A stretch of 64,000 bases of DNA, taken from contig OX485808.1 of assembly GCA_950295325.1 (NCBI GenBank), positions 43,111,180 to 43,175,179 of the forward strand, in the 5' to 3' direction. Both the position numbers and the translations under genes were made by a program. Shown here in pieces: positions 1-50,000 of this stretch. Position 1 is the first letter of the stretch, and each line of letters opens with the position of its first letter. Source of the stretch: Polytrichum commune. Taxonomy: Eukaryota > Streptophyta > Polytrichopsida > Polytrichales > Polytrichaceae. The notes beneath the pieces were generated by a model. The model did not search any database, was not told the DNA's origin, and saw only the letters and a program-made list of their open reading frames with translations.

Positions 1-189
1 GTAGCTACCCGGGATCCAATCGAGGATGTCCATCTTCTTCGCCAGCGATTTCTGCACCCTATAAAATGGCAGATCGCCATCCTCTATGTAGGAGTATATA
101 TTCAGCCCCGACATCTACACAATCCAAGTTATAGGGAAATTAGAATTTGTCGAGGCAGTCACATAAACAAGACTAAGTGAAATGTGTAG

Positions 190-246
190 TTTGGGCCGGT
201 CGACCCAAACCTGCAAAGAGCCTAGTTTGGGTCGATCGACCCAAAC
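190..246. repeat. Two copies of the 22-bp dyad, in the last visible intron of the ParB-like gene
   Basis: Copies lie at about 189-210 (one arm has GGGCC for GGGTC) and at 225-246, the latter a perfect palindrome with central AT. Both sit within intron 274-115 of the ParB-like gene. Confidence 0.9.
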
Positions 247-1696
247 TGCTTACGAGCTATAGAAAGTCACTTACCATAGCAACATAGACAGGTTTTGAGC
301 CTCCGAAGACGTTGAAGATGCAGTCCCCTCTCCTCGTCAGCGTCCTCATCATTCTCATGTAAAATTCCATCCGCAACTCATCTGCAGGATAGTTCGCGTA
401 TTTAGCCTCGTCGTAGAGGCACTTGTTCGCACCCAACCCTTCTGGAACTTGGAAGAGTTTGTCCATCAGGAATATAGGGTGGTTTGGCACCTTCAGCAAC
501 TCCGCTTTGTACACGAAGTATAAACACAAGACGTTGACGAACTTGGTCTTCTTGTCCTTCAACGTCGTGTAAGCCCCCTCCGCCGGTGCGGCGATGTAGT
601 GAGACTTGGACACTGCATACTCCGGCTGCAGTTTCCGGACAAGCTCGTACACCTGCTCCGCCCTTTTATCCTCGACTATCCAAAGCCAGATATCTACCTC
701 CTTGAACTTAGGGCTTGCATAATCGACGAACTTAGTTAAGAAGGGGTCGTAGAAGAGGGTGCTCATTGTGCCCTCAAATGAGCTTCCAGGAATATTTCTA
801 AAATCAATCATCCCAAAAGGAAAGCGGTCCCTTGCTTTCGTCCTTATCGCCATTCTGGCGTCTTGACCTGGTCAGCCCTGAATTTTCAAAGGCTCGAAGG
901 TGACAAGGTTGAAGTAAGCGTCCCCTTCAAACTGGACAATCTTCTTCTCCTTGATGAAGTTCGAGAACGCACGCGCTGTGTGATCCGGAAGCGCCCGGTT
1001 TTTCCCACCCTTCACCATCTTGGCCCGCAAGAAGTCGTCCCCCGCTTCCCTTATTAGAGCCGCCATGGAGTCACTGGTGAACTTATATTCATCTTTGAAT
1101 GCTCTCCAGTTAGCCCCATGAACCTCGCCGTCCACGACAATATTCCTCTCTGGCACCAATTTATGCAGCTCCTGCACGATAGTCGTCTTCTTTTTCCTGT
1201 TCTCCGTCCATTCCTTCATGGTGTAGCATGAAGGAACGAAGGATTTGGGCTTTACGAAGACAATCTTCGGGTGCACCCAGCACCTCTTGGCCGTGGGTGC
1301 CACGTACAGGATGTGCGATGCCGCCTTCTCCACCTCCGTCTCTGACAGCCCTTGAAGAGTTCTAAAGAACTCTCTCACGAGAGGCTTCATCTGCTTGAAG
1401 CGCGAGGCCAGGCTGAAGAAAGCGCCAGTGTCAGGGTCGATCAAATCCCCCGTCTCGTGCTTTTCAAACACGGTTTTCCACTTCCTCCAAACTGAGTCCG
1501 ATGTTGTAATCAAGTAAATCTCCCCCTTCAGGTCGCTGTATTTCTTCTGCTTGTGGCTCGAATTATCAATGGAGGAGAATTTGTTGATCATTTGGTATTT
1601 GAAATCCTGCACGTGAACAAAACAGAACATTTGAATGCGTGTTAGTTAAGTACATGTGATTTCCAAACCATATCATGACCAACATCTACAACAAGA

Positions 1697-1866
1697 GTTT
1701 GGGTCGGTCGACCCAAACTGAAAAAAAACACAAGACTGCAACAGTTGTTTGGGTCGATCGACCCAAACTAAAAAAACACAAGACTGCAACAGTTGTTTGG
1801 GTCGATCGACCCAAACTAAAAAAAAACACAAGACTGCACCGGGAGTTTAGGTCGGTCGACCCAAAC
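1697..1866. repeat. Four tandem dyad units, in the ParB-like gene intron 1875-1607
   Basis: Dyads at 1697-1718, 1747-1768, 1795-1816 and 1845-1866 are joined by an A-rich spacer containing AACACAAGACTGCA, giving a 48-50 bp tandem unit. Central bases are GT, AT, AT and GT. The last copy has one arm mismatch. The array fills most of the 269-bp intron and begins 9 bases inside the splice donor. Confidence 0.9.
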
Positions 1867-3227
1867 AATACTCACCTCCCACTTGGGATTCTTGTCCTTC
1901 GCATTCTCCCTCTCCTTGGGAGGCCTACCATAGAACTCCCACACCTCCCGCGAGGCCATGATATTCCTTATCCAGGAAGCTTGGTAGGCCCTCTTCTTGT
2001 TTCCCATATTGAAGTACCGGGAGATGTCGCTGAGCTTGGTCTCGTCGTCAGACCACACCACCAGTGCCTTCCAAACCTTCAGTTTTTCCTTCTGATTGTT
2101 GGAATCGTCCCACTCATTCATGAGTTGGATTTTCTTGGATGCCTCCACGCTGTGTTGGCCGTCTATCAACCAAAAATCGCCCTTCTGAATTGTTGGCCAC
2201 ATTTCAGGTGTAGGCATTTTCTTGAGACCCTATGGCATCACTACAATCGTTTGCCTGTCGTCTTTAAACTGCTCGCAAACGATCTGCGCGATTATCCAGT
2301 CAACGTAGGCGTCCTCCTTTGTCCGGACACACTTCTCCGGTGGCGCTAGATGGCACTGGCTGATGTTCACGTCGAACTTGAAATCCCTGCCCATGAAAAA
2401 ACAGTGGGAGCATTTCGTCGTGAAATTGTTCACGATTTTCTGCAGCTCCCCTGCATCCACCTCTTCGCCGGGCTTCGGCATGCGCAACTCCGGTGAGACT
2501 GGCTCGTCAGTCATCACAGATGACTCTCTCGCCCTCTTGGATGGAGTTGTTTGACGGCTCCCAGAAGGTGTAGGGGTCTCACTATTCGTAGGTGTTTGGG
2601 AGGGAGTGGTCCTATGCGAGTCAGCCGGTACTGGTAGCGGCATCCTCACCGATTGAGGTCTTGACGACCCTGCTCCTTCCTCTGTGGGAGCTTTCCGCCT
2701 CACAGGTTGCTGTGATTTGGTTTTGCTTTGCAGGCCCCTGTTCAGCACGGTTATTGCATGTTTTAGTTTTGTGAACCGGCTTGAGACCTTGGTATTCGAT
2801 GTACTCCCATCGATAAATATTGTCTCCGGCTTGATAACTTCCGGTTCGACACAGGACTCTCTTGCATAGAGTGCGTCGAAAGGCTCGGAGAACTGGTGCA
2901 TGAACATATGCGCGTTCTGCACAGCCGAGTTCTCGAGGATGACGTCGGTATAGTCTCCAAGAGACTGTACCGATGCGACCTCCCATCCCGTAAGAGTCGC
3001 CCAGGTGTGTTTCTCCACGGTTCCCACCTTGACAATAAAAATCATTTTGTATGTTGAGGCTTTGACTACTTGAATAGACCAAGCGAGGACAAGCCCGTCC
3101 TTAGGGGAATAGGAGCCATCCTGCGGGGTTTCGTGCTCCTGCCACAACATGTCCGGCGCAGGCATGAACCACCTTTCGCCGGGTCTTTTCTTTGGAGCCA
3201 TCTGTAAGAAAATAATGCGCAAAGTTA

Positions 3228-3249
3228 GTTTCGGTCGTTCGACCCAAAC
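3228..3249. repeat. Single imperfect dyad upstream of the ParB-like ATG
   Basis: One arm carries TTTCGG instead of TTTGGG; the other arm is perfect. It lies 27 bases 5' (minus strand) of the exon-1 start, in what the adjacent splice acceptor suggests is another intron. Confidence 0.8.
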
Positions 3250-3487
3250 ATCTACGACATGAATAGGTTTAGGTGGATTGTGTATTTATATATTTCAGCA
3301 TCATTTGTAATGATAATAAGAATGTTGTGATTATTGGGTGGATTTGCATTTTATATTGTTTGTGACATGCAGGATTCCTTTATACTTTTCCTTGATACAT
3401 TCCTTGATTATTATTTTGGGTTGATGTGAATTTTATATTGATGCAAAAATCATGGATTTCTTTATGAGTTTATAATTAGAAGACTTA

Positions 3488-3662
3488 GTTTGGGTCGTTC
3501 GACCCAAACATGATGCTTTGTGTTATATTTTGGTCGTTCGGCCCAAACATGATGCTTTGTTTTGTGTTTGGGTCGAGCGACCCAAACAAGGGGCTGTGTT
3601 TGGGGCTGTGTTTGGGTCGGTCGACCCAAACAAGAGGCTGTGTTTGGGTCGTCTCCCCAAAC
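3488..3662. repeat. Cluster of five dyads upstream of the ParB-like gene
   Basis: Copies at about 3488-3509, 3527-3548, 3566-3587, 3610-3631 and 3642-3662 have centres TT, TT, AG, GT and a degenerate TC. Spacers contain ATGATGCTTTG or GGGGCTGTG. Flanking 3250-3487 and 3663-3900 are AT-rich and show no gene. Confidence 0.85.
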
Positions 3663-3899
3663 AGTATTATTTTAATGTATTTTTTAAACTTGGCATCTAG
3701 CATATACAATGCTTATGCATTGTGTATGCTACAAAACCGTGAATATACAAACACATATTGGTTAAAATAAAACACAATACCTTTCAAAGATGTTGTGCAG
3801 ACAATTTGGAGTAGAGCATGTTGTTCTTCCAATAATTCTCAATATGAAACAAACTGTGAGAAAGTTCAATGAGAAACTTTCAAACAAGTATCAACTCTC

Positions 3900-4190
3900 T
3901 CAAATAGCTCTTGGATCTCTCAACCAACTCCTGAATCTTACACAGAACTACTGAATCTCTCAAAAGACTTCGAAATGTCTAAACCAACTCCTGAATCTCA
4001 CACACAACTACTAAACCTCTCAAAAGCCTTCGAAATGTCCAAACCAACTCCTGAATCTCACACACAACTACTAAACCTCTCAAAAGACTTCGAAATGTCT
4101 AAACCCACTCCTGAATCCCTCACAAAACTACTGAATCTCTCAAACGACTTCGAAAACTCTCAAACAACTCTTGATACTCTTAAAGAACTC
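3900..4190. repeat. 60-bp tandem repeat, about four to five units
   Basis: A 60-bp unit (CTCCTGAATCTCACACACAA ... CTCTCAAAAGACTTCGAAATG) repeats and decays at both edges. Because 60 is a multiple of three it stays open on the plus strand and would encode a 20-residue repeat; I see no start context or homology that argues for a gene. Confidence 0.8.
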
Positions 4191-5500
4191 TTGAATTTCA
4201 CAAGCACTCCTAAAACTTCCAGTACAAACACCTGGACCTCCCAAACCGAAGCTTTATCTACTACACAATGTTCTACTAACTTCCTTCAGCACTTTCCAAT
4301 ACTCTTCAACACTCTTTTGCTAACTTCCTTCACTCTCACGCTCTAAAACCTTCCTCCGTATGTTTCTGTTTCTTTCAAAACTCTTCCTAACTTCTAAGAT
4401 TGCACAAGGGCTATTCTATTGAAGAGCAAAAGAAAGGAGGGAAAAGAAGATGCAGAAGAAAGCAATGAACGCGGGAGAATGAAGGGTTAACCTACACCAA
4501 GCCTGATTCGCCGCGGCGCTTTGCGAAAGCGGCGCTTTAGGAGAGGCGGCGCTTCCAAGCGAGGCGCGGAGAGAGAGAGAGAGAAAGAAATGAGAAATGC
4601 GACGGTTGGGGTTTTGTTTACCTCGGGCATTGGCCCCCAACCGCATGAATAGGGTGCCCACAGGATTAGGGCACCCACGGAAACAGGGTTACAGGGAACC
4701 CTAAAACCTAAATCATAACGCTTGACTCTAAACCCTTAGCGGGCCTACCTCTTTAAGAGTACATAGGCTATTTGCCTCATAGCATAGGTTGCATTCTACA
4801 ATATCAACTTTTTGTAAGTTGAAAACCTTTTGAGTTTGTAAGTTCCTCGCCAATTGCCTCAAAACTAATTTTTAGTAGGTTAAAATCCTTCATATCTTTT
4901 AATGTTGTAGGTTTTAAAATCAAAATTTGAGTACTAAGTGGGATCCTTGGCAGGAATTGAACCTGGCTAAGCCTTTCACCACGTTTGAAGGCCAAGGATT
5001 AACCAAGTCTTTTTTAAAGAGTTGATTATAAGTTATGAAAGGTTGCTAAAATTCAAATGAGTTTAAGGGTGAAAGTTCTCACCATGTTCTCATTCAACCT
5101 CTACTCTTCCTGCAAGATATAGCCTAAAGATATGTACTTAGGCCAACTAATTTCCCAATTTGAAGAAGGATGAATGGCTAAAATCCTTTCTTTTAAAAAA
5201 AATTTAGGCAAAATTTCCTAAATGTTTTTATCACATAGGTTGATATCCTATGTTTTTAAATTGTCCATAGGCTCTTTGTCCTACACTTTCAAAATTTTAT
5301 AGGCTAAGTCACTAATTTTGTAGGCTGCATTTGTTTTAATCGGTATATTCGTTAATTTGGGATTTTTTCGGCATTTTGAGAAAGTTACAAATATAAGAAC
5401 ATGGATAAAATCGCACGTACATTGGAGAATGTTGTAAGATGCAAATACTTTGAAGCGGGTGTTCATATCAAGAACGCAATTAAGATCTCATATGAAGATG
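4191..5500. other. Intergenic, no gene seen
   Basis: AT-rich DNA with a short GC-rich patch at 4505-4580 (GGCGGCGCTT repeated three times) next to a GA dinucleotide run. No coding signal recognised apart from the tRNA-like fragment listed separately. Confidence 0.6.
4925..4990 (-). other. tRNA-derived fragment (SINE remnant?) with box-B-like sequence
   Basis: On the minus strand GTGGTGAAAGGCTTAG is followed by CAGGTTCAATTCCTG, which resembles an RNA polymerase III A box and T-arm/B box. TCCTTGG and CCAAGGA could pair as an acceptor-like stem. The span between the stems is only about 55 bases, too short for a tRNA and lacking an anticodon arm. Confidence 0.25.
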
Positions 5501-5522
5501 GTTTAGGTAGGACGACCCAAAC
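5501..5522. repeat. Degenerate copy of the 22-bp dyad
   Basis: GTTTAGGTAG then GACGACCCAAAC: the right arm is intact and the left arm has three differences. It lies just before the hairpin block at 5527-5594. Confidence 0.6.
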
Positions 5523-5526
5523 ATTA

Positions 5527-5594
5527 CACTATGTTGTTGTGGTCCATATATTAATTTGAGAGAAGAGAAAATCTCAAATTAGCGAATTTTAGGG
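5527..5594. repeat. Hairpin-containing block, copy 1
   Basis: AATTTGAGA (5553-5561) and TCTCAAATT (5572-5580) form a 9-bp stem with a short purine loop. The surrounding sequence (CCATATATT before, TTAGCGAAT after) recurs at 12421-12479 in the same orientation. Confidence 0.75.
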
Positions 5595-6104
5595 TTTAGG
5601 TTCTTTTGGACCCTGCTCTAAACCCTTATTAGTTTTTTCAAAAGAACTATGGAGTACCCTAAGGTGCTACATAAAATGTGTTATTCTACAAAACTAACCA
5701 TTTATATAGCCAGCGCATTCTTACAACAAAACTTTATGCTAAACTAATACTTATCCCCTACTTACATGACACCATACCCTAAATTTTCCAAAATCATTGA
5801 AGGCATTGGTTTCTCTTTTGTTTGAGCATGTTAGAAAATTTAAACCATATAATTGCGTTATATTTAACGATGTAACCATTCACATTTAGTCCTTACCAAT
5901 GATGCCAACAATTCACACGATATTGAATGAAAAAAAAAAGATTACCCACACCCCCCAACATGTGGAACAATTTAGAATAATTGAGTGTGGAGCCTAATAA
6001 ATGAATACCTTCCCCAACTGCATTTTGCAAGGGTTTTGAAATGCACGATCCTTATTTGAAAATGCGAACATGCTCAAGTTTTAAGTACATCCCTTAGATC
6101 GTGA

Positions 6105-6935
6105 CTTTTACGAATCACATAGTCGCCAATAAATCATGGTTCATGATTTATTTAATATATAGATTGTGATATAAGAGTAAATGGGATAAGCACAACATCA
6201 AATGAAGCCATTCAAGCAATCATGTTGTTATTCCCTGTTCCTTCCATGTATATTAGATGATGGCGCAAGATAAAATAGATGTTGTTTGTATATGGGGGCA
6301 TCAGTGAACCACAACTACATTTGGTGTTTAGGGTTTAGGGTTTAGGGTTTAGGAGATAGGAGATAGGGTTATAACATATTAATCTATCCAATGTCAATGT
6401 ATAACATTGTCTTACTCGTGAGAAGAGTCTTATAGGAAGGTTATAGTGAAGACGATGTTGATTATGTTAATTTGTTATTCGAGACGTTTAAACGCGATAT
6501 ATTGATTGGTCGTGTGTTTATTCAAATAACATGAAATATTGTGGATGTTAATAGGGGCTAGGGGTCCAACTTTGGATGTTTCGCTCACTTTAGGGAATCA
6601 CATATTAGTCGCTAATAAACCATCGTTCATGATGTATTTAATATATGGAATGTCATGTAAAAGTAAATCAGAGAAGCACAACATCATGTTGTTATTCATT
6701 GTTCTCTCCACGTGTATTAGATAATGGAGGAAGATATAACAGATATTGTTTGCATAATATGAAGAAGAGTCTAATCGGAAGGTCATAGTAAATACAATCT
6801 TGATCATGTTAATATGTTATATGGGACGTTTAAACATGATATCCTAATTGGTTTTGTATTTAGTCAATGCATATTTCATGTTGTGGATGTTATAAGGGTT
6901 TAGGGTCCAATCTTGGATGTTTTGCTCTCACACAT
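6105..6935. repeat. Imperfect tandem duplication of about 0.4-0.5 kb
   Basis: Copy A (about 6105-6590) and copy B (about 6594-6935) share AGCACAACATCA, CATGTTGTTATTC, GGACGTTTAAAC-type and TTGGATGTTT(T/C)GCTC blocks in the same order. Copy A also contains a telomere-like run. No coding potential recognised. Flanking 5595-6104 shows nothing else. Confidence 0.75.
6327..6353 (+). repeat. Interstitial TTTAGGG run
   Basis: Nearly four consecutive units of the plant-type telomere heptamer; a shorter run (about 2.5 units) is at 7083-7102. Too short to mark a telomere. Confidence 0.85.
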
Positions 6936-7529
6936 TAGTAAACTTGAAGTGAACTTGAGGATGGATTCAAGTAACATTAAAAGATTGAACTAGAAAGGGA
7001 CATTGGTAGTTAGTATCCCCTTAACAACGTCCACATACGTTCATCATTGCCACTCTTGCATGCGAGATAATAGAGCAAGGTTCTAGGGTTTAGGGTTTAG
7101 GGGGGACAAATAAATAATTCTATTCATCATGACAATGGCCTCAAGCCTTGGAAACTCTCTCATAATTGCAGCCTCCAAATGGCCCAAACCCCACCTAAAT
7201 AGGTTTACACTTGAAAGCATTGAATGGAGTTGTGTTTGGGTCTACATATTGGTTAAAATATACCTTGATGATACTTGAAAAAATTAATGTGGCCGCCACC
7301 CTTCCTCCCAATGGCGTATGTCATATCCACACAAAACAAAACAAATAGATTAAATAACATAGACTAAGTCATATGACGGCTGGGGTATCAGAGGGGCATT
7401 GATAGATGCGCATTTTTCTACTATAAACAGAAAACGGGGAATTCTGTCAGGAGGTTTGAAATAACCTCTGCAAGAGAAGAAGGCGGGGAAGGCATCCAAT
7501 GACTAAGTCTGGGAAGCGGAGGTGGATAG

Positions 7530-7537
7530 TATAAAGG
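7530..7537 (+). promoter_or_regulatory. Possible TATA box upstream of the dyad array and DUF7869-type gene
   Basis: TATAAAGG followed by a GC-rich patch and a pyrimidine-rich stretch (TTTTTTTCTCTTCTCCCGC at 7562-7580) looks like a plant core promoter. If used, the transcript would run through the dyad array before reaching the ATG at 8886, probably with a 5'-UTR intron ending at 8880. This is an inference from sequence context only. Confidence 0.3.
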
Positions 7538-7840
7538 GGCGCACCCCCCAAAAGTCGGTCATTTTTTTCTCTTCTCCCGCTGTCGAATTCGTAGAGAGAA
7601 CTCTTAGTAGGAGCTGTACTTCAAGGTTCGTGCATGCTGCCGTTCATGAGCACTTATCCATAGCATGCAAGTTCATGAGCACCTATCCACACCATGCAAG
7701 CCCACCGTGAACTTTGCAATGAGCTCAAATTCAACACACCACGCAATATCCGCCGCATTATACGCCGGATTTTGTGGTGTACTTGGGCGAACCTTCACCT
7801 TTACACTAGTGTTGGCGGGTTTTGAGTCTGACCCTATGAG

Positions 7841-8709
7841 GTTTGGGTCGACCGACCCAAACCTGTCCACTAGTGTGTTAGGGTTTATGTCTGACCCTTA
7901 ACAGGTTGGGTCGGTCGACCCAAACCCCAACCCCAGTGTGTTAGGGTTTTTTCCTGACCCTTATCAGGTTTGGGTCGACCGACCCAAACCCCTACGTGGT
8001 GTGGGTGGATGTACCCTTGTGAGGTTTGGGTCGGTTGACCCAAACCCCTACCCTAGTGTGTTAGGGTTTTTTTCTGACCCTTGTCAGGTTTGGGTCGACC
8101 GACCCAAACCACTACCTGGTGTGGGTGGATGCACCCTTGTGAGGTTTGGGTCGGTCGACCCAAACCCCTACCCCAGTGTGTTAGGGTTTTTTCCTGACCC
8201 TTATCAAGTTTGGGTCGACCAACCCAAACCCCTACATGGTGTGGGTGGATGTACCCTTGTGAGGTTTGGATCGGTCGACCCAAACCCCTACCCCAGTGTG
8301 TTAGGGTTTTTTCCTGACCCTTATCAAGTTTGGGTCGACCAACCCAAACCCCTACATGGTGTGGGTGGATGTACCCTTGTGAGGTTTGGGTCGGTCGACC
8401 CAAACCCCTACCCCAGTGTGTTAGGGTTTTTTCCTGACCCTTATCAAGTTTGGGTCGACCAACCCAAACCCCTACATGGTGTGGGTGGATGTACCCTTGT
8501 GAGGTTTGGGTCGGTCGACCCAAACCCCTACCCCAGTGTGTTAGGGTTTTTTCCTGACCCTTATCAAGTTTGGGTCGACCAACCCAAACCCCTACATGGT
8601 GTGGGTGGATGTACCCTTGTGAGGTTTGGGTCGGTCGACCCAAACCCCTACCCCAGTGTGTTAGGGGTTCAGTCCGATCCTTATGAGGTTTGGGCCGGTC
8701 GACCCAAAC
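7841..8709. repeat. 120-bp-period array holding 15 dyads
   Basis: Each 120-bp unit contains two dyads whose start-to-start spacing alternates 56 and 64 bp (for example 7968, 8024, 8088, 8144). One spacer carries GTGTGTTAGGGTTTTTTCC and the other GGTGTGGGTGGATG. Most units after 8160 are near identical, so amplification is recent. Reading frames stay open on both strands because 120 is a multiple of three, so they are not evidence of genes. Confidence 0.95.
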
Positions 8710-8885
8710 CCGCATCAAAATAATTTCTGGAACTTGTTTTGGACTTGCACACAGTGTTGGGAGTTCACATTGTAGTTGTGTTGGAAATGTCTTCATCCTC
8801 GGTGTCCCCATTGATCATGGTGTCTTGCATTTTCCGATATTTGATTCTTTTGGACCCTTACATTCTTTCCATGTGTGTAGGCGTA

Positions 8886-11800
8886 ATGGAGGGAGTTGGT
8901 GGAAGAGGGGATTCCTTCTCTGACGACATGGGCAACACCCAATCTACGTTTGGGGATGAGCTAGACATTGTTGGGGAGGATAGTTTTGATGACAGTGCAG
9001 ATGAAGGTGACTTGGGGAGTCCTTCGCCATCTGCCCCTTCTTGCCCCACTGTGGAATGTGCTGGGCTTTCACGAGCTTCATGGGTGAATTTGGATGTAGT
9101 ACTTGTTAATGACAGTGGAGTTGCTGTGGCGGAGGGTATTTGTTCTAACACACATCCACAAGATTGCATTGATGAAAACCCCCTTGGCACCGAGGACGTT
9201 GGAGTTGTTATATTGGAATCACTCGTACATTCCGAAGTGAATCCAACTCATAGGTTCTCGTTGCGAAGGTGGCCGTTGAGGAATGTGACAATTGATGGGG
9301 TTAATTTGTATGAGCATGAGCGACGACACATCCAAATCCAAGAAGAGCTCCAAGCAAACATTCGGCCACGCAAAGGCCTACGGAAGTACGATACATTGGC
9401 ACGTCCTACTCCGTCTGCAAATGAGTGTAAACGTCAAAGGTTGCTTTGTGAGGAGTCCATTAGAGAAGTTGCCACAAAGGATTGTTGTGTACATCGTTGT
9501 TGCCAATTGTTCCCAAGGGATAAATTGAAGGCCATCCGCGAGGAAATGTGGCTTGGAGATTTCCGTCTAAGATCCACCAAAAAGCTTGATGTCCATAGGG
9601 CGATACATGTGAACGGAGCGGGTCGCAAGGTCATCACCCTTGAGAGCATAGACGTGTGTTGTACCGCATGGTACATCATTCACGGTGTGTCGAAAGCGGA
9701 ATTTTATAGACAAGCTGCGTATGCCAAGGAAGGCCGCCGGTCCCGTCACCATGGGAATACGGGCTTAAAGAAACCAAGGGAAGCAATGAGACAAGCAACC
9801 GCCACTCTGGCAACCATCATTGTCCCCCTTGCCGATGCAATGCCGCACAAAACACGCACACTCGCAACCGGTGAAAAGGTTGTGGAGAAGGTTCTTCCTA
9901 CAGGCACGAAATGGAAAGACATATTGTTGGACGTAAACGCAGTTGGCGAGAAGGCTGGGTTGGACCCTATTTCGTTGTCGAAACTGAGTGCAATAAAAAA
10001 ATCTCACTTTAGCGAATACATCACAAAAAGACGAGGTGACAAATTTGCCCGTTGTTCCAAATGCGAGAAGTTGAAACGCCTTCGAGATGCACACACGATG
10101 GGGACAGAGTCCTATGCCGCACATCAAATGAACTATTTCAAGCATGTGAACATGCAAGAGGCACACCGTAATGATTACTACACAAATAGAGCTTTGTCCA
10201 TCTCTAGGCCTTTGGAGGTCCTTACAATCATCCATGACAAAATGGACCATGCCAAAACAGCCTCACCATGTTTTGCAAATCGAATCAAAGCCACGGACGG
10301 CCTTTTTAAGCTTCCTGTATCGGTTACAGGTGATTTCGATAACAATTGCATTGCATTACTTAAACACAAATTTGTGCTTTAGGTTTGTACTTGGGGCCAT
10401 AGATGTACACCATGTGAATTTTTTGGTGTTATAGTTGAATATTAAACCATTGGGTTGGCTTTACAGGGATGATTGCACATGGACATGGTGATGTCAAGTA
10501 TGCTCATTATGCTCTTGATTTGTATCCGGCGGATTCAAACCACACGATAGGGTCATTTGCAAAGCTTTTACGTGATTTGGAGAAACCGCCGTCCTATTCA
10601 TCAAGATTGTTATTTGAAAATTCGGGATCAACACCTCTATATGAAGCGGTCTTGGATGGAAGAGATGTATGTATGCACTCCTTGCCGGAGCCACCAAGTG
10701 AAGATGTGATTGCCAAGAATTTGCCCCCAACTCTGCGTGTCCAATTGGACAATTGTGCGAAGGACAATAAAAGTAGATATGTTTTTGCATATTGGTCGTT
10801 GTTGGTTGCGAAAGGCATTTTCAAGGAGGTTTTTGTGTCCTTTCTATTGGTAGACCACACGCACGACGATATCGATGCATCTTTTGGGCGGTGGAGCATG
10901 AAGTTGCGCGAGGAGGATTTTCCGACAATCCCATTGTTGATGAAGTCGTACATGGATTTGGAGAACATTCCCGTCATCCCCCATATGATCGAGGAGGTTC
11001 CAGACTTCAAGGCATTTATAGAACCGTATATTCGAAGCGGAGCTCACCGATTGATCGGACATACGAAGGCACAACAATTTCGGTTCTACGTGCGTGACGA
11101 TGGTGTCCCCGCCATGCAATACAAGTTGTTGTGCACGTCACAAGACTGGAGCCCGCCGGAGGGTCTCCTTGTATGGCGTGTTGATGGGGAGGGAAGGACG
11201 ATGTTGCCTGACGGAGAGCCTAAGCCTTGCAAACCAATACCCATGAAGAATTTGGAGGACATTTGTAAAGGCATATCAGGCTTCATACAATATTGGGAGA
11301 GTTTGAGGGTAGCGGATGTTGGTGGATCGTGTTGGCTTCGTTACGGAAGTTGGATACAATATTGGACACGTGTTCGTGGTGCTTTGGCAAACCTTCATCA
11401 AGATACACCCCTTACTTTAAGGCATGGGTTTTGGCCACAAACACGTGTCAATGTACAAGCTTCGGAAGCTAGTCTTTTGGGAAATGGAGAGGTTCGAGAG
11501 GAGTTTGATGTGGACGACCATTACGTGGGGCCTGCTAGTAGTCGTCCGCCACCATCTTTCCGCATTGCAGTGGATTGTCATGAAGGTTATATGCTCATTT
11601 TGCGTCCTGGAGATGAGACATATGCAAAGCCAGTTTGGGTGGCAAAAGCTTTGTCCAAACCAAATTTTGTAACTTCCAGCCCTCATTTTCGACAAATACA
11701 AGTAGAGTACTACCGACCGACAGCACGGAATGAAGATGTTGTTCGGCATTATACAGGCTGGGATACAAACCCTAACTTTCGGTGGAAGGTGGATTCTGAG

Positions 11801-11953
11801 CACGGTCCATCTTGGGTAGATACAGATTCCATATTCATAGCATGGAAACCACGGAAAAATCATAGTGGATCAGTGTCCATCCCTCAAAAGTACATAACTT
11901 TTACAAAAGACAACCTTGCTCGGATCGCAGAAGAAGCAACCCACGTTAAATGA
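8886..11953 (+). CDS. DUF7869-type transposase-like protein, two exons, intact
   Basis: Exons are 8886-10329 and 10467-11953 (intron 137 bp, ACAG|GTGATT to TTTACAG|GG), giving about 976 residues. The ATG at 8886 follows a pyrimidine-rich acceptor ending at 8880, which suggests a 5'-UTR intron; longer in-frame starts add only a hydrophobic, unlikely leader. The acidic N-terminus is followed by a CCVHRCC cluster and a CSKC pair. The core shows IIHDKMDHAK, then VSVTG|MIAHGHG across the intron, VQLDNCAKDNKSRY, and HTHDDIDASFG. These are the conserved acidic and His motifs of DUF7869 proteins, which look like an RNase H-fold transposase. A C-terminal Trp/Tyr-rich region resembles chromatin-reader folds, but I cannot assign it. 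The frame has no stop, unlike its mobile neighbours. Catalytic activity is inferred, not shown. Confidence 0.7.
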
Positions 11954-12420
11954 GAAGTTGGTAGGATTGTGTTAGCATGATTATAGTGTAATATGTAATT
12001 CGACGAATATATATTACTCATATGTGTGCTCCTCAAACTTGGGGCAAAGTTTGGGTAGAATTTGCGAATGCTATATTGTTTGGGGTTGGATGAATATCCA
12101 TTTACTATATTTCAATACAGTTGTGAAGTTCATTTTTTTATTAAGTTTGGGACTAAATTTTCCATTGAAGAAAAATGCATTTATTGCATGTACTTTGTAT
12201 GTTGCAATGTCTATATTTTATTGACCATGCTAATAATAGAAATCATTTTATATGTTTTTTGGGTGAAACTAGTTTGGAGTGCTCTACCCAAAGTGTTTTT
12301 GTTGATGAAGTTGGTGTTGAGTGCTCTACCATATGTGCTTATGTCCACACCCCATAGATTTGGGATATTAGAACATATAATATATTTGAGATTGTTCGCA
12401 ATATAGTTTCGGAACACGGA

Positions 12421-12479
12421 ATGTTGTTTGATCCATATATTAATTTGAGACTAGAGAAAGTCTCAATTTAACGAATATA
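12421..12479. repeat. Hairpin-containing block, copy 2
   Basis: Matches 5527-5594 over about 60 bases, in the same orientation, including CCATATATTAATTTGAGA and a TCTCAA(A/T)TT arm. Together the two copies bracket the dyad array and the DUF7869-type gene. Between the gene end and this block (11954-12420) I see AT-rich DNA and two copies of GAGTGCTCTACC, no gene. Confidence 0.7.
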
Positions 12480-12590
12480 GTGTTTTAACTACAGTTGTTG
12501 TTCACTGTGTCAAGTAATGCTAATTACTACATCAAGTAACGCTGTCCGTTTTAAGTAACAAGATTTTATTTGCTGAAATACAGATTCAAA

Positions 12591-13472
12591 ATGGACGGAT
12601 CTGCAAGGCGCGCAATGTTGGACCTGGAGCTATGGAACTTGGAGGAAAAGAAGCAGACAGACAAAGATTGGTTAAGTATCGATGCCCCTGTAGTATGTGT
12701 GCAGGGGGAAAGGTACTGTCTAGAGCAACCATACAGAAACATCTCCGTTGATACAAACGAGATCCCGCATTCACGAAATCCATATTGGTAAGTGTTATAT
12801 TTGTGTTCATTCAATTCTATTGTTTTGTAATTGAGGCACTTTAATTTTGATGTAATAACGATTCCATTCGTGTAGGCACAAAGAAGACCTTTTGTTGAAG
12901 AAGCAGCTAAGACGGCTATGGAAGAGTTTTTTAAAGAGATGACAACCCCCACACTTGTCCCTCAAAAGAAAACTTACACTAACGAGGAGCTGAAATTGAT
13001 GAATTGGAGGGTTGACAAATTCGATGGGCAGTGGTGTGGTGGACCCATACCAAAGTTTAGTACTTTCAACTTTCATGATAGAAAGTGGGAAGTTCAAATT
13101 TCTAAGTTTTCATTCATGGGCTGGGGTTTATTTGCAATGGATCCCGCAAAAGCAGGCGATATCCTTTTGCCATTTGTGGGGCCTCAATACACTAGGACAG
13201 AATACCGGAAGATGAAAAGTCTTGTACCCCGCTTCAAAAGCTATGTCCTTAAAGTTGAGGATGACATTTACATCGACGGAAGAGTGGAGAGGGGCAATGT
13301 TGCAGGATTTATTAATAGCTCCATAGGGCGAGAGGAAATCGGCAATGTAGTGTGGGAGTATAGTTTGCTTCCAAAGCCTTGGAACAAGAACGAATGGGGT
13401 TTTGTTATGACCATTGCATCAAGGGATATAGAAGTAGGAGAAGAGTTGTATGCATATTACTCCGTGAATTAA
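12591..13472 (+). CDS. SET-domain protein (putative lysine methyltransferase)
   Basis: The main exon (12876-13472) encodes a compact SET domain. Counted from Met 12918 (184 residues), FMGWGLFA lies at 66-73, GNVAGFINSS at 126-135 (the catalytic RFINHS-type segment) and GEELYAYY at 174-181. SET enzymes transfer methyl groups from S-adenosylmethionine to lysine, usually on histones. No pre-SET or post-SET cysteines are visible. A first exon at 12591-12787 (start ATGGACGG, donor GTAAGT) joins acceptor 12875/12876 out of frame by my reading. So either translation starts at Met 12918, the splice differs, or one base has been lost. It sits between two transposon genes but is open throughout its SET domain. 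It could be cargo of one of them or an independent small gene. Confidence 0.6.
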
Positions 13473-14137: not shown

Positions 14138-15637
14138 ATGACGGTAGAGGCAAACAATGATACGGGACAAGATGTAGATGGAGACATATTACTAGAATCA
14201 AATACGGAAACAGTGGAAGATAGCAGGGAGGGAGTGGAAGTAGTTCGGATGGTGAACGAGTGTTTCAAGAGGTATGATGGATTGCCCGCACGCGCAAACA
14301 CCACATCACACAATGAGGGTATGGAGGAAGAAGACGAAGGTTCACAAGAAGACGAGGACGGGATGGCCAACATGGAAGTACCTTTACTTGAAGATAGCAA
14401 TGAAGAAAATGACTCAAGTATGGAGGATTTATTGAAAGAAGCGAGAACTCCGCTCTTCAAGGATAGCCCCACCAACTGCTTGCAAGCAATCCTAATGCTC
14501 CTCAATGTATGCAACATTTTTGGAGTTCCAAACGCATGTGTGGACGAGTTGCTAAAGTTGCTTAAACATGATCTACTCCCCAAAGAGAACACTTGCCCTC
14601 CTTCACATTACGAGGCCAAGAAATTAGTGAGGAAGTTGGGTTTAAGCTACAACACTATTCATGCGTGCAAGAATGGGCATTGCTTGTTCAGGAATGAACT
14701 GAAGGACGCGAAAAAGTATCCTCAATGCAAAGAATCGCGGTATATTCCCAGTAGTGACCGCATTCCAGTGAAAGTGTTGCGACATTTTCCTCTTATACCT
14801 CGGTTGCTCCGAATGTACCGTTGCAAACGGTTGGCAGAGCTTATGACGTGGCATGTGGAGGGAAAAAACAATGACAACAAAGTAAGATCGGTAGTAGATT
14901 CAAAGGCATGGAAACACGTGGACGCAAGGTGGCCGGACTTTGCGAAGGAGCCAAGAAACCTACGTTTGGCACTAGCCTTGGATGGTATCAATGCATTTTC
15001 CAACTAGTCTTTAAGTCATTCAACATGGCCAGTGATTTTGTTAAACTACAATTTACCACCATGGCTAGTTACGAAACGGTTTTTTGTGATGTTAACCCTA
15101 ATCATTCCCGGAAAAGAAAGTGTGAAAGAGGAGAATATCCATGTGTATTTAGCACCGCTTATAGAGGAGTTTCAAAGGTTGTGGAAAGGCGTGATGGCAA
15201 TAGATGGATCCGTTTTGGAGAAGGCGAGTTCAAGTGAGGGGAGTATTTATTCCACAAACCCAAATTTCAACTTTCGTGCGATTCTTATGTGGAGCATACA
15301 TGACTTTCCGGCGTATGGGTTGCTTGCCGGACAAGTAACAAAGGGGTATAGGGGTTGTCCCCCATGTGGGCCACATGTGTCAACGAGGAGGTCCAAGTCG
15401 TTGGGGAAGAACGTTTACCTCGGTCATTGTCGTTACTTGGTAATGCACCATCTGTATAGACGCCTAAAAAATAGCTTTGATGGAGAAGAGGACCACCGAG
15501 GTTCCCCGCGGGTAATGTTTGCACATGATTAATTGCGGTTTGCAAAATAAAGAGAAGACTGGTTGGCAAGCTCGACTGAAAACAAAGAAGGAGACAAACT
15601 GGATCCAATCCACGAGCATGGAGTGAAGAGAAATAAT

Positions 15638-17395
15638 GCACTCTTTGCATTACCATATTGGAAGGTATACACAGCGACTATTGTAATACTTTGTGAAGTA
15701 ATGCATGTCTATTAAACGTAAACACATTTTACTGTGTGAGGTAATGCATAATGACTAGAGAAAGTAAGTGTTCACTTATAAATGCATTTTTCCTAATACT
15801 CTAATACTTATAGAAGTAATGGTATAGTCATATCGGACAACCATTGTTTCAACACTTTGCAACAGTTTAATATATGGGAGTAACTTAGGTCTTGCAATAG
15901 TTTAATATATGCAGCAACTTAGGTCTTGCACTCTTTGCATTACCATATTGGCAGGTACACACTAGCGACAATTGTTTTACTTTGTGAAGTAATGCATGTT
16001 TATTAGAAGTAAACACACTTTACTGTGTGACGTAACGCATAATGACTGGAGAAAGTAAATGTTCACTTATAAATGCATATTCCCTAATACTCCAATACTT
16101 ATAGAAGTAATTGTCGCAACCCTTGCTAGGTCCCTTAATAATCTTGCCAATTTTCGTTTCTAGCAAAGGTTACGAGCGCTAACCCTTCGCATTCCGCCAT
16201 GCTAATGGATAGCTCCTCTTACCCCGGACCAATAGTTCATAGGAGGGAACCAACCCTCCTACTTTGCTTTCGGGACTCATCCCTTAATCAGTAACCCATT
16301 TCCCCAATGTGGACTTCCATCCATGGAAGTCCAATCCTATGTTGATCATCGCGTTGCCGGAGCAACACTACAACAACCCGAAGCATACTAGGCAACTATG
16401 GCCTCACAATAGGCCAAAGCCCATGGAGGCCTTGCCGTTCGGCCTCGGGTGGGTGAGGCCACACCACCTCACCCATATAAGCCTCTAGGACTTCACGCGG
16501 GGCCCCTACCCCACCGTCAACCAACCTCTTGTCTCCCTACCAAGAGTTGGGGCCAAGTGGACATTTTCCTTTAGCTGCTGGGCCTAGAACCCCCCAGCAG
16601 CTTCAGACCATCATAACTTCCTTGTATGATGTCTGATCATAACAACCAACCACTCCATCCTCATCTACGCTTCACGTAGATGCCGATGGACTCCTCACTT
16701 GCTCCATTCGAGCAAGTCTTGAGGAAGTTATGCCTGTTTGAACCTTGGCAGTCCCGGGAATCCCTCCCAGGCACTGCTGTACCAGGGCGCTGTCCCGGGA
16801 CAGCGCCCCACTCAAATGGCCATAACTCCTAGCTCACACCTCCGATTGAGGTGATCTTGAGCATTCTAGAATCACCACGCCATGAGCTACGCATAGCTCA
16901 TGGCCTTACCCTCATGCCTCCTAGTCTCCGTGGGTGGGAGGCGTTCCCAACGCCCGGGGCCCTCACCCACACTAGGATCACTTGGGCCCTCTCACCAATG
17001 GCGCCACAAGTCCCGGGTGTCACTCCGGGGTCCCCCTTGTGCCCACGGTGTTTCGGGCACTCCTCATGGAGAGGTGTGCGACAGTAATGGTATAGTAATA
17101 TCGGACAATCATTGTTTCAACGCTTTGCAACAGTTTAATATATGGCAGTAACTTAGGTCTTGCAACAGTTTAATATATGCAGTAACTTAGGTCTTGCACT
17201 CTTTGCATTACCATATTGGAAGGTACACACTAGCGACTATTGTTTTACTGTGTGAGGTAATGCATAATGACTGGAGAAAGTAAGTGTTCACTTATAAATG
17301 CATTTTTCCTAATACTCCAATACTTATAGAAATAATGGTATAGTTATATCGGACAACCATTGTTTCAACACTTTGCAACAGTTTAATATATGGCA
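15638..17395 (+). repeat. Triplicated exon-end/intron segment, about 290-bp period
   Basis: The segment beginning CTCTTTGCATTACCATATTGG starts at 15641, 15931 and 17199. After removing the 977-bp insertion (solo LTR plus one target duplication) the period is about 290 bp each time. Each copy carries the end of the ALFALPYWK exon, a GTAYAC donor-like sequence, and the words GTAATGCATAATGACT and TTTAATATATG. Confidence 0.9.
16112..17083. mobile_element. Solo LTR, 972 bp, flanked by GTAAT duplications
   Basis: The insertion starts TGTCGCA and ends TGCGACA (TG...CA with a 7-bp terminal inverted repeat). GTAAT is duplicated at 16107-16111 and 17084-17088. The neighbouring paralogous copy at about 15805-15830 preserves the empty site (AGAAGTAATGGTATAG). 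The sequence is GC-rich relative to its surroundings. No internal retrotransposon genes are present, so it is best read as the product of LTR-LTR recombination. Confidence 0.85.
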
Positions 17396-18619
17396 TTTGA
17401 CAGACAATGTACTTAACCAAATTTTGTGTGCACCAACAGGGCCTTCTTATACGCAATACGTTGGATGTAATGCACTGCGAGAAGAACATCACAGAAAGTC
17501 TTATGAAAACCATATTTGGGGAGAATGATACACTCAAGGTTCGCATGGATTTACAAGAAGCCAACATACGGCCGCATTTGTGGCCCATACCGGGGAGAAA
17601 ACCATGAAGCCTCACTTTGCCACAAGCCCCATATGTGCTCACAAAGAACGAGAAGGAGGTATTTGTGGATGTTGTGCGGCAATTGAAAACTCCAACCCAC
17701 TACGTGGGCCAATTGCGGAAAAGAATTAACGTGGATGTGACATTGAAAGGATTGAAATCCCACGATTACCATGTTCTTATGCAACAAATTTTTCCCCTTT
17801 GTGCACGCACAATCATGAGAAAAAATGTGCGTATATGCATAATAAGATTAAACGCATATTCAAACGGATATGCGCTAAAACCATCAATCCGTTGGAAATG
17901 AGTTCCTTGAGAGAGGACACGGCCATCACCTTGTGCATGCTTGAAAAAGAGTTTCTACCGGCATTTTTTGATGTCATGACGCACCTTGTGGTGCACTTGA
18001 TTGAGGAATTAGATATTTGTGGGCCTATACATGTCCGTTGGATGTATCCTATGGAAAGGTATTTAAAGACATTGAAGGGCTATGTTCGAAATCGCAATAG
18101 GCCCGAAGCTAGTATGGCCGAAGGATATGCCATAGATGAGGCGTTTGGTTTTTGCACGGAGTACATGACGTCATATTCCATTACAAGTCGCAGGATATGG
18201 GACGACAAAGAGGATCCTACAATAAACGACGAAATATTGGAAAGTGTTGGGCGACCAAGGATACTAACCCCCAAGATACGCGAGTGGATCCATGAATTTG
18301 TGGTGAATAATGTGGTCCCCTTGGAGTCGTGGAGAGAATAAGTTACTTTATGACTTATGTTCCTGGCCGTGACATTATATTCCAGGCACAATGATATGTT
18401 AATGGCATGCACATTATAATTTCATTAGTCTTACTAGGCAATAACTATACGTAGTAAGCATCTGTAACTGTCAAGAGTGAATAAATATGGAAATGACATA
18501 TATTTATTACTTGACATAGTGATATCTACGTTACTATGTAAAGTAATATTAACAAAACATGAGTGGAATTTGAAAGACAACACAATATTGTATTTTTCTG
18601 CAAGCGCCAAACCGCAAGC

Positions 18620-32610: not shown

Positions 32611-33050
32611 CGATGTCTGTCTCTGTTCCTGTCTCAATACGATGACACATGTTATCATCGTCCATGATCGATGAGCCTACCAAGGAATTGAGAAAGGTAA
32701 TATGAATTCAAACCAACAAGCAATGTATGTCTCTGTTCCCATCTTAATACGATGAGGCATGTTATCATCGTCCATGATCGATGAGCCTACCAAGGAATTG
32801 AGAAAGGTAATGTGAATTCAAACCAACAAGCAATGTATGTCTCTGTTCCCATCTTAATACGATGAGGCATGTTATCATTGTCCATGATCGATGAGCCTAC
32901 CAAGGAATTGAGAAAGGTAATGTGAATTCAAACCAACAAGCAATGTATGTCTCTGTTCCCATCTTAATACGATGACGCATGTTATCATCGTCCATGATCG
33001 ATGAGCCTACCAAGGAATTGAGAAAGGTAATGTGAATTCAAACCAACAAC
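32611..33050. repeat. 110-bp tandem repeat, four units
   Basis: GATGAGGCATGTTATCATCG-type starts occur at 32641, 32751, 32861 and 32971, exactly 110 bp apart and nearly identical. Each unit includes CATGATCGATGAGCCTACC and GAGAAAGGTAATGTGAATTC. No open frame suggests coding. Confidence 0.95.
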
Positions 33051-47071: not shown

Positions 47072-50000
47072 TTATGGAGGGTCTAAGTTTTGGGGGAGCG
47101 GTTGGTGGTTTTCAATTCTCCTCTTATGGAGGAGGATGGACATGGCATATTGTATTGCAATGGTATTAATGTTTTTAAAGGTATTTTTGATGGTAACCAA
47201 GGGTATTTTGAGATTTTCTTCTAGTATTTTCATAGATGGGATGTGGGCCGTAGCTCGGGCCCCAGCTGTGATGACAATAAGTGGTTCGATTTTCCATCCT
47301 CTGGAAGCGATACTATCAATCAAAGGTTTGTATTTGTTGTTTTTTGCTTCTATTGTTTCTGGGGAAAATCTGTCGTTACAATATGTGAATTCAATAAATT
47401 GTATGGTGAGGTTAGGGTCAATGTCAATGGGAGGGTCATTTTGATATGGTAATCCTTTAACGCAGAGTATATCAGGTCGAAATCTTGCGTTGCAATGACA
47501 TCTTTGTGTGTTACATGTGCAGGGGAGTAGCCAATTGGGGACTGTATTTTCTCGGGGGTTATTATTGAAGGTACCGGCATTCATGAGAGTAAAACATCGG
47601 GATTTTTCGGACGAGATTAGAAGCTTCCTAATTTCTTCGACTGCTTTATTATGTCTTTTAATTCGTAGTGAGTGTATATGTTGTTGGTTGCATTTCAGTA
47701 GAACATGTAGCCAAGTGTTTGGATCGTTTGAATTGCATATAGGGCATGTGATAGAGGGGTACCTCTGGTGACCGAAGAACATTTGTTTTCTAGCATTACC
47801 CATGTATGTTCCTGTGCGGAATTTAATAAGGCAGGATTTTTGTTTGTCTGTGATTAAGGGATTTGTCCAGAATTCGTTGGACAGTTCTTTGTCAATGTCT
47901 ATATTTTCTGTCCATTTACACGTGTTGGGGGTTTGTGTGGCCATGATTGCTATATTGGTTTCCCTATCATATTTTTTTATTTGTTTTTCTAAGAATCTTA
48001 CTGGGCCTTTGTTTGGGACGTCTGCCATCGAGGCCCAGACGTCCTTTTGGTAATAATACGGGATGGCGTGGGCATGTTCGTATGGGTGGATGGCAATTCT
48101 GTGTTCTAATTCTAACCCGTCTTTTGCTAGTTTATCCGCTTTTTTATTACCGTCAATGTTAACGTGTGCTCTGACTTTGTATAGTGTGATTGGTTGTGTA
48201 CGGTCTTGGAGGATTTTTACCATGGAATTGAGTGTGGTTTGGTCGGGGTGACTATTATGGAGAGTGGGGTGTTTAATTTGTGTGTTGAGTAGGTATAATA
48301 CGTTTAGACTGTCTGTGAATATGAATGCGGGTTCATTAGGGAATTTTGTATTGATGATTCTTAGTGTTTTGTGTATAGCCATCATTTCTGCACGTAGTAT
48401 GTTTTGATGCCCATGGAGTCTTTTGGCGATATTTAAGCCTTTGGGGCTATAGATACCGTATCCAGCTCTTTCTCTTCTCCATACCCCAGGGGCAATTTCT
48501 TTGGGTTTTATAAAGGATCCGTCTGTGTAGTAGCTAAATTGGGGGTGGAATTTTAACAGTAAGTTAGTTTGGTAGTTTGGAAGTTGTGGGGTGGGGATAT
48601 TATTGTGTAGGGGTGTGTTTGGGTAGTTTGATTTAGCCCATTTTTTACTAGGGTTAACGGTGATGTTTGGAGGGGTGGGTGGTGCAGTTTGTGTGTGGCT
48701 TTGTAGTATTTGGAGGTTATTTGTTGTGTCGTTTATTAATTTCATTTGTTCGTATGTTCGTATGTTATTGTTTTGGTGATGGATACAAAATATTTGCATG
48801 GTAGATGGTTCTTTTCTTGTGATATTGAGTTCGGAGGGTATTGTGGGATCCTCATATGTGATCGTATCAGCGGCGAAATGGGCAATGACGTGTGTGTCTG
48901 GGAATGGGCCTGTGTGTGGGTTGGAGTTTTAGTACCAATTAGTATCCGGAAATATAACTATAGTGATTGTATATGGATCATTTTGGGCCGCTATGCGCGC
49001 CCAGCGAATAGCTTGTTGTAGGTCTGTTGTATTATGAGGGTGTGCGTAACCGATTCCTTGCCATTTATGGTCAAACGCTTTACCTAGGGATCCAAATATT
49101 ATGTCTCGCGAGAATGGTGAGTAGAATTGGGTGAATTGTGTGGGGCATGTAACTGGGGATGAAAAATATGAGTGGTTAATATTGAATGTTGTAATCATGA
49201 GATCTAATATTTGGGTTGGTATTGTATATTGGGCTTGTTTGAGTGGGTCATTTTTTGGGATACGGTATTTGTACCTTTGGTATAACCAAACAATTTCAGT
49301 TTCGAACGATTGGGTACATGGTTCTAGGCCGTGTGTGGTATTTTTTGGTAATTGGTATTGTTTCCATAGTCATGTTAGTCTAGCTTTCGGGATGGTAATG
49401 AGGTGTCGGCCATTGTCTTCGTATATGTGAGCAACATCAAATTGTGTTTGGATGGTATCAGAGTTTGTTTCGATGTCGTTTTCTGGGTTGCATTCATTAA
49501 TAGAGATATGTGCTAGTGGAATTATTGTGGTTGGTGTGACGTATCTTGTGTCTCTATGTTGTTCTGTGGTGAAGTAGGTATTAATTATGTTTGAAAAATG
49601 TTTGTGTTGTCTTTCTTTGTAGTAATAGATAAGTAGGTCTGTGTTATGATTACATGTGTTGGCTTCACAGTAGGGGTATAGGTCCCTTTGAGTTCGCCAT
49701 TTGTTATATGTGTTGTTATTTGTTGTAGTCAATTGACATAAGTACGACGTGACTGTTCTTTTTATTCCGTTATGGTCTTTGGATTGTTTTTGTTTGTGAT
49801 CGATTATTTTGTGTATGGGAAATTGTCGGGGGTCTTTAAGCATGTTGTTGGGAGGGGGGTAGAGGGGGGATGAGGAGGTTAAGGGGGTGTACGGGGGCGG
49901 TTGGTGGGTGTGGTAGAATGTTGTGGTGTCTTATTATATATTTATTTTTGAAGGATCTTGGTGGATGGTGTTGTTGGCATGGTAGGGGGCATTGATTACA

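Follow-up and report, generated by a model that had tools for sequence, protein, structure and literature searches.

Transposons of the En/Spm (CACTA) type carry TNPA-type subterminal sites that are clustered near both ends of the element, and VANDAL transposons carry a MULE transposase. Within Arabidopsis, sequence-specific anti-silencing by VANC has been described for VANDAL transposons (PMC5735166, PMC10398659), and the account in PMC5735166 presents the VANC motifs as tandem repeats in introns and upstream regions that turn over between copies and families, with a VANC-type motif occurring in an unrelated transposon as well. Among bacteria, ParB domains fused to adenine methylases have been reported (PMC5512222). 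Literature searches on moss transposons, palindromes, anti-silencing and ParB-like systems listed no description of elements like those considered here, and for DUF7869, the domain encoded by the principal one, no paper was found. That element, a DNA transposon designated type I, is represented by a copy cut by the left edge of the window, as we call the whole stretch of 64,000 nucleotides of Polytrichum commune DNA that was analysed (C6:43111180-43175179, in a genome of 408 Mb and 64 contigs). It carries many copies of a 22-bp palindrome, GTTTGGGTCG-NN-CGACCCAAAC, with two 10-bp arms around a 2-bp centre (10-2-10; hereafter the GTTTGGG palindrome). The transposon is 16.6 kb long and present in many copies, and the palindromes recur within it, occupying introns, an intergenic spacer and one coding stretch. 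A sequence-only reading of the window had noticed the palindromes beside a ParB-like gene but had not recognised that a single transposon contains both; the finding is a real motif system of transposons, larger than a single-gene feature.

The exact motif occurs 9,231 times in the genome, and its reversed control not once. Sites were mapped singly to elements for the first 100 of the 9,231, and these are clustered in transposons rather than spread evenly, with 77 in type I, 23 in a second transposon (type II) and none elsewhere; elements of the two types cover roughly 4% of the stretch that holds them. In the window, 27 palindromes lie at 189-8709 (at most 3 mismatches in the 20 arm bases; mean of shuffles 0.01), and none was found at that threshold in 8710-64000. 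The sequence-only reading had counted 28, the additional one most likely being a degenerate site of 21 bases at 3642-3662, and had described them as confined to the left 8.7 kb; that confinement is an effect of the window edge, as the same type I copy has three further exact palindromes left of the window, two of them within a coding exon. Its observation that the non-coding parts of the ParB-like gene carry copies holds for both window introns and the upstream region. The pattern recurs across the family: 20 of 114 ParB-like places were sampled, spanning 90-99% protein identity, and palindromes (at most 5 mismatches) were present in intron 1 and upstream in all 20, with arrays of varying length.

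The limits of type I emerged when three other clusters were compared with the window and the DNA adjoining it on the left. The whole copy spans C6:43107040-43123663 (about 16.6 kb), reaching 4.1 kb left of the window to a left end at L001:5861 and running to window position 12484 on the right. It has the terminal inverted repeats, target-site duplication and many dispersed copies of a DNA transposon. The right terminal repeat, AACACTATATTCGTTAAATTGAGAC, is matched about 1,196 times genome-wide at no more than 2 mismatches (595 forward, 601 reverse; reversed control 0), and a second type I copy is flanked by ATAA on both sides, so that a duplication is seen in both of the copies for which both ends were read. 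The gene order, from left to right, is a NIF/HAD-like gene, the ParB-like gene (minus strand), the palindrome array and the DUF7869 gene (plus strand). The parts that lie in the window are the following.

1-12484, no strand assigned: right 12.5 kb of the type I copy, delimited by homology break-points against the second copy (L002+L003) and by matching terminal inverted repeats
1-114, minus strand: start of ParB-like exon 3, whose open reading frame (ORF) runs on left of the window (L001 8615-9958); splice limit inferred
115-274, minus strand: ParB-like intron 2, GT...AG, with two palindromes (189-210, 225-246)
275-1606, minus strand: ParB-like exon 2, with an in-frame stop at 872-874 in the window copy
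1607-1875, minus strand: ParB-like intron 1, GT...AG, with palindromes at 1697, 1747, 1795 and 1845 (50-bp period)
1876-3201, minus strand: ParB-like exon 1, with an FWLIDGQH motif and an in-frame TAG at 2230-2232 in the window copy
3228-3249, no strand assigned: single palindrome GTTTCGGTCGTTCGACCCAAAC just upstream of ParB-like exon 1, near-invariant in 24 aligned copies with diverging flanks
3488-3662, no strand assigned: upstream array, with palindromes at 3488, 3527, 3566 and 3610 and a degenerate one at 3642
5501-5522, no strand assigned: degenerate palindrome with 2 mismatches, present also in the second type I copy
7841-8709, no strand assigned: array of 15 palindromes with a period of about 120 bp, between the ParB-like and DUF7869 genes
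8865-11953, plus strand: DUF7869 gene in two exons (to 10382; from 10469), Pfam PF25273, E 2.3e-39
12460-12484, minus strand: right terminal inverted repeat
12485-12488, no strand assigned: putative 4-bp target-site duplication, TTAA

The ParB-like gene thus has three exons, with exon and intron limits read from the sequence. It is interrupted in the window copy by the two in-frame stops; in several other type I copies exon 1 or exon 2 is open. Genome-wide, 114 matches to its exon 1 were scored out of 1,091 candidates, and 150 matches to DUF7869 out of 1,491. The DUF7869 protein is a candidate transposase, and the match of its gene region to the second copy starts at 8865. The NIF/HAD-like gene was recognised in a Pfam scan of the second type I copy (PF03031, E 1.3e-13), and at L001 7326-8090 and L007 2038-2880 the transposon has a gene of NIF/HAD phosphatase-like type that contains a DLNG motif. 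In the array at 7841-8709 the centres alternate between AC and GT, the last one excepted.

The arms of the palindrome are conserved as DNA, in sequence and in their 2-bp spacing. The spacing is 2 in 126 of 126 arm pairs at four loci, and genome-wide the 9,231 exact-arm copies with this spacing compare with 2 copies at spacings of 0-1 and 2 at 3-8. At two orthologous sites aligned over 23 copies, the arms show 11 changes within groups and none between groups, as against 49 and 36 in the flanks (Fisher p 0.006), in a test that omits the most diverged copy, the flank of which is shifted, and that relies on author-defined groups, one of them mixed. With that copy kept and the flanks left ungapped, the within-group and between-group counts are 11 and 1 for the arms and 43 and 71 for the flanks. 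The arms, which the sequence-only reading had described as near-constant, do therefore evolve more slowly than their surroundings. Moreover, two palindromes lie in frame in the exon 3 ORF, left of the window, where they read as FGSxDPN, the variable residue x being encoded by the variable centre. Synonymous differences number 0/12 inside these coding palindromes versus 25/75 outside (p 0.016; the three comparisons share one diverged copy and hence are not independent), and both amino-acid differences inside them fall at the centre-encoded residue. Half-site mismatches were counted over 343 distinct sites in the loci compared, with inherited changes entering more than once; by these counts TTT and the sixth base are the most constrained positions.

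The centre had been regarded as free, which it is not. Purine-pyrimidine steps account for 5,475 of the 9,231 centres and pyrimidine-purine steps for only 38, every one of them CA/TG, with the remaining 3,718 obtained by subtraction. Since transitions alone cannot turn the other centre classes into pyrimidine-purine, and since at least 9 of the 38 sites lie 2.4-2.9 kb from a DUF7869 match (checked against part of the match list), founder history can explain the deficit as well as selection can.

A further line of evidence comes from other transposon families and their palindromes. Type II elements are about 12.3 kb long with 61-bp inverted repeats, and a reading of their motifs suggests that they are MULE-like (a SWIM match, E 0.03, is below the cut-off); they are apparently unrelated to type I, and no DUF7869 match was found in them. 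They carry GTTTGGG arrays with a 32-bp period together with a second palindrome, CCNTGTGCGTTAACGCACANGG, an ORF with a DGNH motif, and an exon for which a phage profile of DNA methyltransferase gave a match (5e-5) but no Pfam family did. Type I exon 2 resembles a methyltransferase by motif only, with no significant profile match and no homology to this exon of type II, and a comparison of the type II ParB-like exon with phage records gave nothing convincing. Only the second palindrome is found in two sets of four relatives, one at 80-81% protein identity, for which 1.4 kb of upstream DNA was covered in each, and one at 52-75%, with 7 kb in each. Six relatives have both, namely five at 85-90% protein identity and L069, which is at 77% protein identity, yet has upstream DNA 92% like the GTTTGGG-bearing type; GTTTGGG arrays among MULE-like relatives were seen in a single subclade only. 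Because the first two sets of relatives carry the second palindrome alone, and because the GTTTGGG palindrome is present even in a type I copy whose exons are just 76-78% identical to those of the others, the motif seems to have been acquired late by type II and to be old in type I.

In type III, at about 40% identity, the sites are all GGTTTCGG-NN-CCGAAACC-like, at four of four loci. Two of its loci, L054 and L055, contain several kb of 52/85/213-bp tandem repeats on either side of the ParB-like ORF. Type IV, a family with a 692-aa DUF7869 protein, has a different 10-2-10 palindrome, CCCACGGGTG-NN-CACCCGTGGG, with 644 exact copies in the genome and none of the control. In one type IV copy (L073) the sites lie upstream of, in the inferred introns 1 and 2 of, and beyond the third ORF of a gene whose first two exons are homologous to type I ParB-like exon 1 (3e-7) and exon 2 (1e-19); sites also lie in frame within the acidic third ORF. 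This gene and a DUF7869 gene 15-20 kb away probably form one element, judging from palindrome spacing and not from terminal repeats. An earlier impression that the 692-aa family lacked a ParB-like gene (L032, L072) was rejected on finding the homologous gene at that distance at another copy. At L033, a more distant DUF7869 locus, 10 kb contained neither the GTTTGGG palindrome nor any exact palindrome whose arms are 9 bp long. The two remaining motifs have 747 (TGTGCGTNNACGCACA) and 267 (GGTTTCGGNNCCGAAACC) exact copies in the genome, with one reversed-control match each and with sites mapped to elements in part. The palindromes of the families are four, GTTTGGG, CCCACGGG, TGTGCG and GGTTTCGG, and a [DN]G[QN]H motif occurs in an ORF of each of the four palindrome-bearing families examined; the ParB-like gene is the only gene type with a common short motif in all of them.

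The fixed spacing, the independent conservation of each arm and the replacement of the motif at corresponding places of the gene argue for a dimeric binder encoded by the element, and analogy with the VANC motifs suggests a role in anti-silencing. We rate at about even odds the interpretation that the palindromes are sites of such a dimeric factor, most likely the ParB-like protein, serving anti-silencing or activation. In this scheme each palindrome would be bound by a homodimer of a transposon-encoded protein, one half-site per subunit, with the multi-exon ParB-like protein as the most likely binder. The many sites per copy would let the factor coat the element and keep transcription possible, and the factor would counteract host silencing or activate element genes, as VANC does on Arabidopsis VANDAL transposons. 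A shift in the specificity of the protein would be followed by replacement of the sites of a family with a new palindrome through tandem-repeat turnover, and a MULE-like transposon that has gained type I palindrome arrays may exploit the type I factor. The sequence-only reading had offered a dimeric protein site as one of two possibilities; it is well supported at the sequence level, by the spacing, by arms that are each conserved, and by a mismatch that leaves an arm position of the 3228 site unpaired in 24 of 24 copies. It had also linked the sites to the ParB-like gene, a connection that the 20 sampled copies and the common motif of the four families strengthen but leave unproven.

Several observations weigh against this interpretation. 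The ParB identity proposed earlier drew no significant match for the ParB-like proteins in Pfam, NCBIfam or PDB; the label depends on the short [DN]G[QN]H motif, and structure models are of low confidence (pLDDT 36.9 for exon 2, 35.2 for the ParB-like domain). Homology between the ParB-like exons of type I and those of types II and III is not significant, and that between types IV and II/III is marginal (E 0.022, probability 2%). According to PMC5512222, known ParB domains act as nucleases largely without sequence specificity, and specificity would therefore need to reside elsewhere in the protein. The CpG transition excess in exons, at 1.9-fold, is too small to speak either way on methylation, and CpG decay was dropped as a clue to it. 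Finally, both 10-2-10 families encode DUF7869 proteins, so that DUF7869 could itself be the binder.

Sites for the candidate transposase in transposition, comparable to the subterminal sites of plant DNA transposons, are accordingly an alternative to be taken seriously for types I and IV, to which we would assign perhaps one chance in four. Both palindrome-bearing DUF7869 families share the 10-bp arms and 2-bp centre, and type IV has one palindrome between two DUF7869 ORFs and several upstream of the DUF7869 gene; against this, the sites fill the introns of another gene and the middle spacer instead of clustering at the ends, and type II carries the identical palindrome with no DUF7869 match found there. 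It is unlikely that the transposons exploit a transcription factor of the host for which the palindrome is a binding site. The occurrence of an identical palindrome in two apparently unrelated transposons would suit a host factor, but the first 100 listed sites all lie inside these transposons, and a wholly different palindrome at corresponding places of a related family is not readily explained. Similarly doubtful is the notion that the palindromes are functionless by-products of tandem duplication and of the spread of young copies. Many do lie in tandem arrays, many copies are young (type I copies are about 98-99% identical within one group), and the diversity of centres in part reflects founders; such by-products would not account for single-copy sites kept while flanks diverge, for coding palindromes frozen at synonymous positions, for a spacing fixed across the genome, or for the different palindrome of the sister family at corresponding places of the gene. 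Lastly, that the near-perfect dyads work as hairpins or cruciforms, of RNA or DNA, is highly improbable, and the maintained hairpin of the sequence-only reading was rejected: one arm of the 3228 site lacks its pairing base in all 24 copies, double changes that mirror each other show no clear excess (16 against 11.5 expected, P 0.08; 7 compensatory), and two central bases are too few to form the loop of a hairpin.

If the palindromes are indeed sites of the ParB-like protein, the system may, more tentatively, represent a new class of sequence-specific factor that transposons encode for anti-silencing or self-marking. Such a factor would have a ParB-like domain as its core, joined in at least one family by a methyltransferase-like part; it would recognise 2-bp-centred palindromes and undergo a concerted switch of specificity across the element, introns and coding exon included, and an unrelated transposon would have adopted its motif. 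With four palindromes and four protein families, the genome would then offer a natural series in which to study how specificity changes jointly in a protein and in its hundreds of dispersed sites, and the in-frame coding palindromes would provide a direct test of DNA-level selection within a transposon exon.

Other features of the locus are recorded here for completeness. To the left of the window copy, at a distance of about 3 kb, lies a further copy of type I, inverted and partial (L001 69-2792). Within the window copy, a stretch at 5338-5594 has ends resembling the type I terminal repeats and one degenerate palindrome, and looks like the internal relic of a small non-autonomous relative; a 20/60-bp tandem repeat lies beyond the upstream palindromes at 3896-4211. 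About 430 bp past the right end of type I is a SET-domain ORF (12918-13472; PF00856, E 2.4e-10) with a sub-threshold Ntox17 match, followed at 14138-18341 by Transposase_21 and DUF4218 matches, which we take to be of CACTA type. Four repeats of a 110-bp unit, at 96% identity, occupy 32613-33049, and ORFs that read as LINE-like (long interspersed nuclear element), with a sub-threshold endonuclease match (E 0.00047) and a strong GC skew, occupy 47072-53246. TTTAGGG-type repeats are also present in the window.

With regard to the known systems, the palindrome resembles ParB/parS and the ParB-methylase fusions in being a palindromic site with, possibly, a ParB-like domain encoded in a neighbouring gene, and the type II gene, like the fusions, also has a methyltransferase-like exon. 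It differs from ParB/parS in its thousands of copies in transposons, in the lack of a ParB profile match and in having no partition context, and the palindrome is unlike a parS site. The earlier suggestion of parS sites, and with it a partition role, is without support, as the exact motif occurred 0 times in the viral contigs and 0 times in the bacterial and archaeal genome contigs scanned. The TNPA sites of En/Spm are likewise repeated short sites for an element-encoded protein, as is proposed here, but the present palindromes are spread through the element, introns and an exon included. The VANDAL/VANC system shares tandem arrays of a short motif in the non-coding parts (introns and upstream) of a large DNA transposon, the gain and loss of repeats between copies, the difference of motif among related families, and the appearance of the motif in an unrelated transposon. 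The VANC-type domain (DUF1985) had no match in Pfam scans of the ORFs scanned. Unlike the 9-base VANC motif, which has one orientation, the motif here is a 22-bp dyad with a fixed 2-bp centre, and type I is bounded by terminal inverted repeats and encodes DUF7869 in place of a MULE transposase, type II being MULE-like by motif reading only. Should the proposed role of the palindromes prove true, a VANC-like strategy would have arisen again, with a different protein and in different types of transposon.

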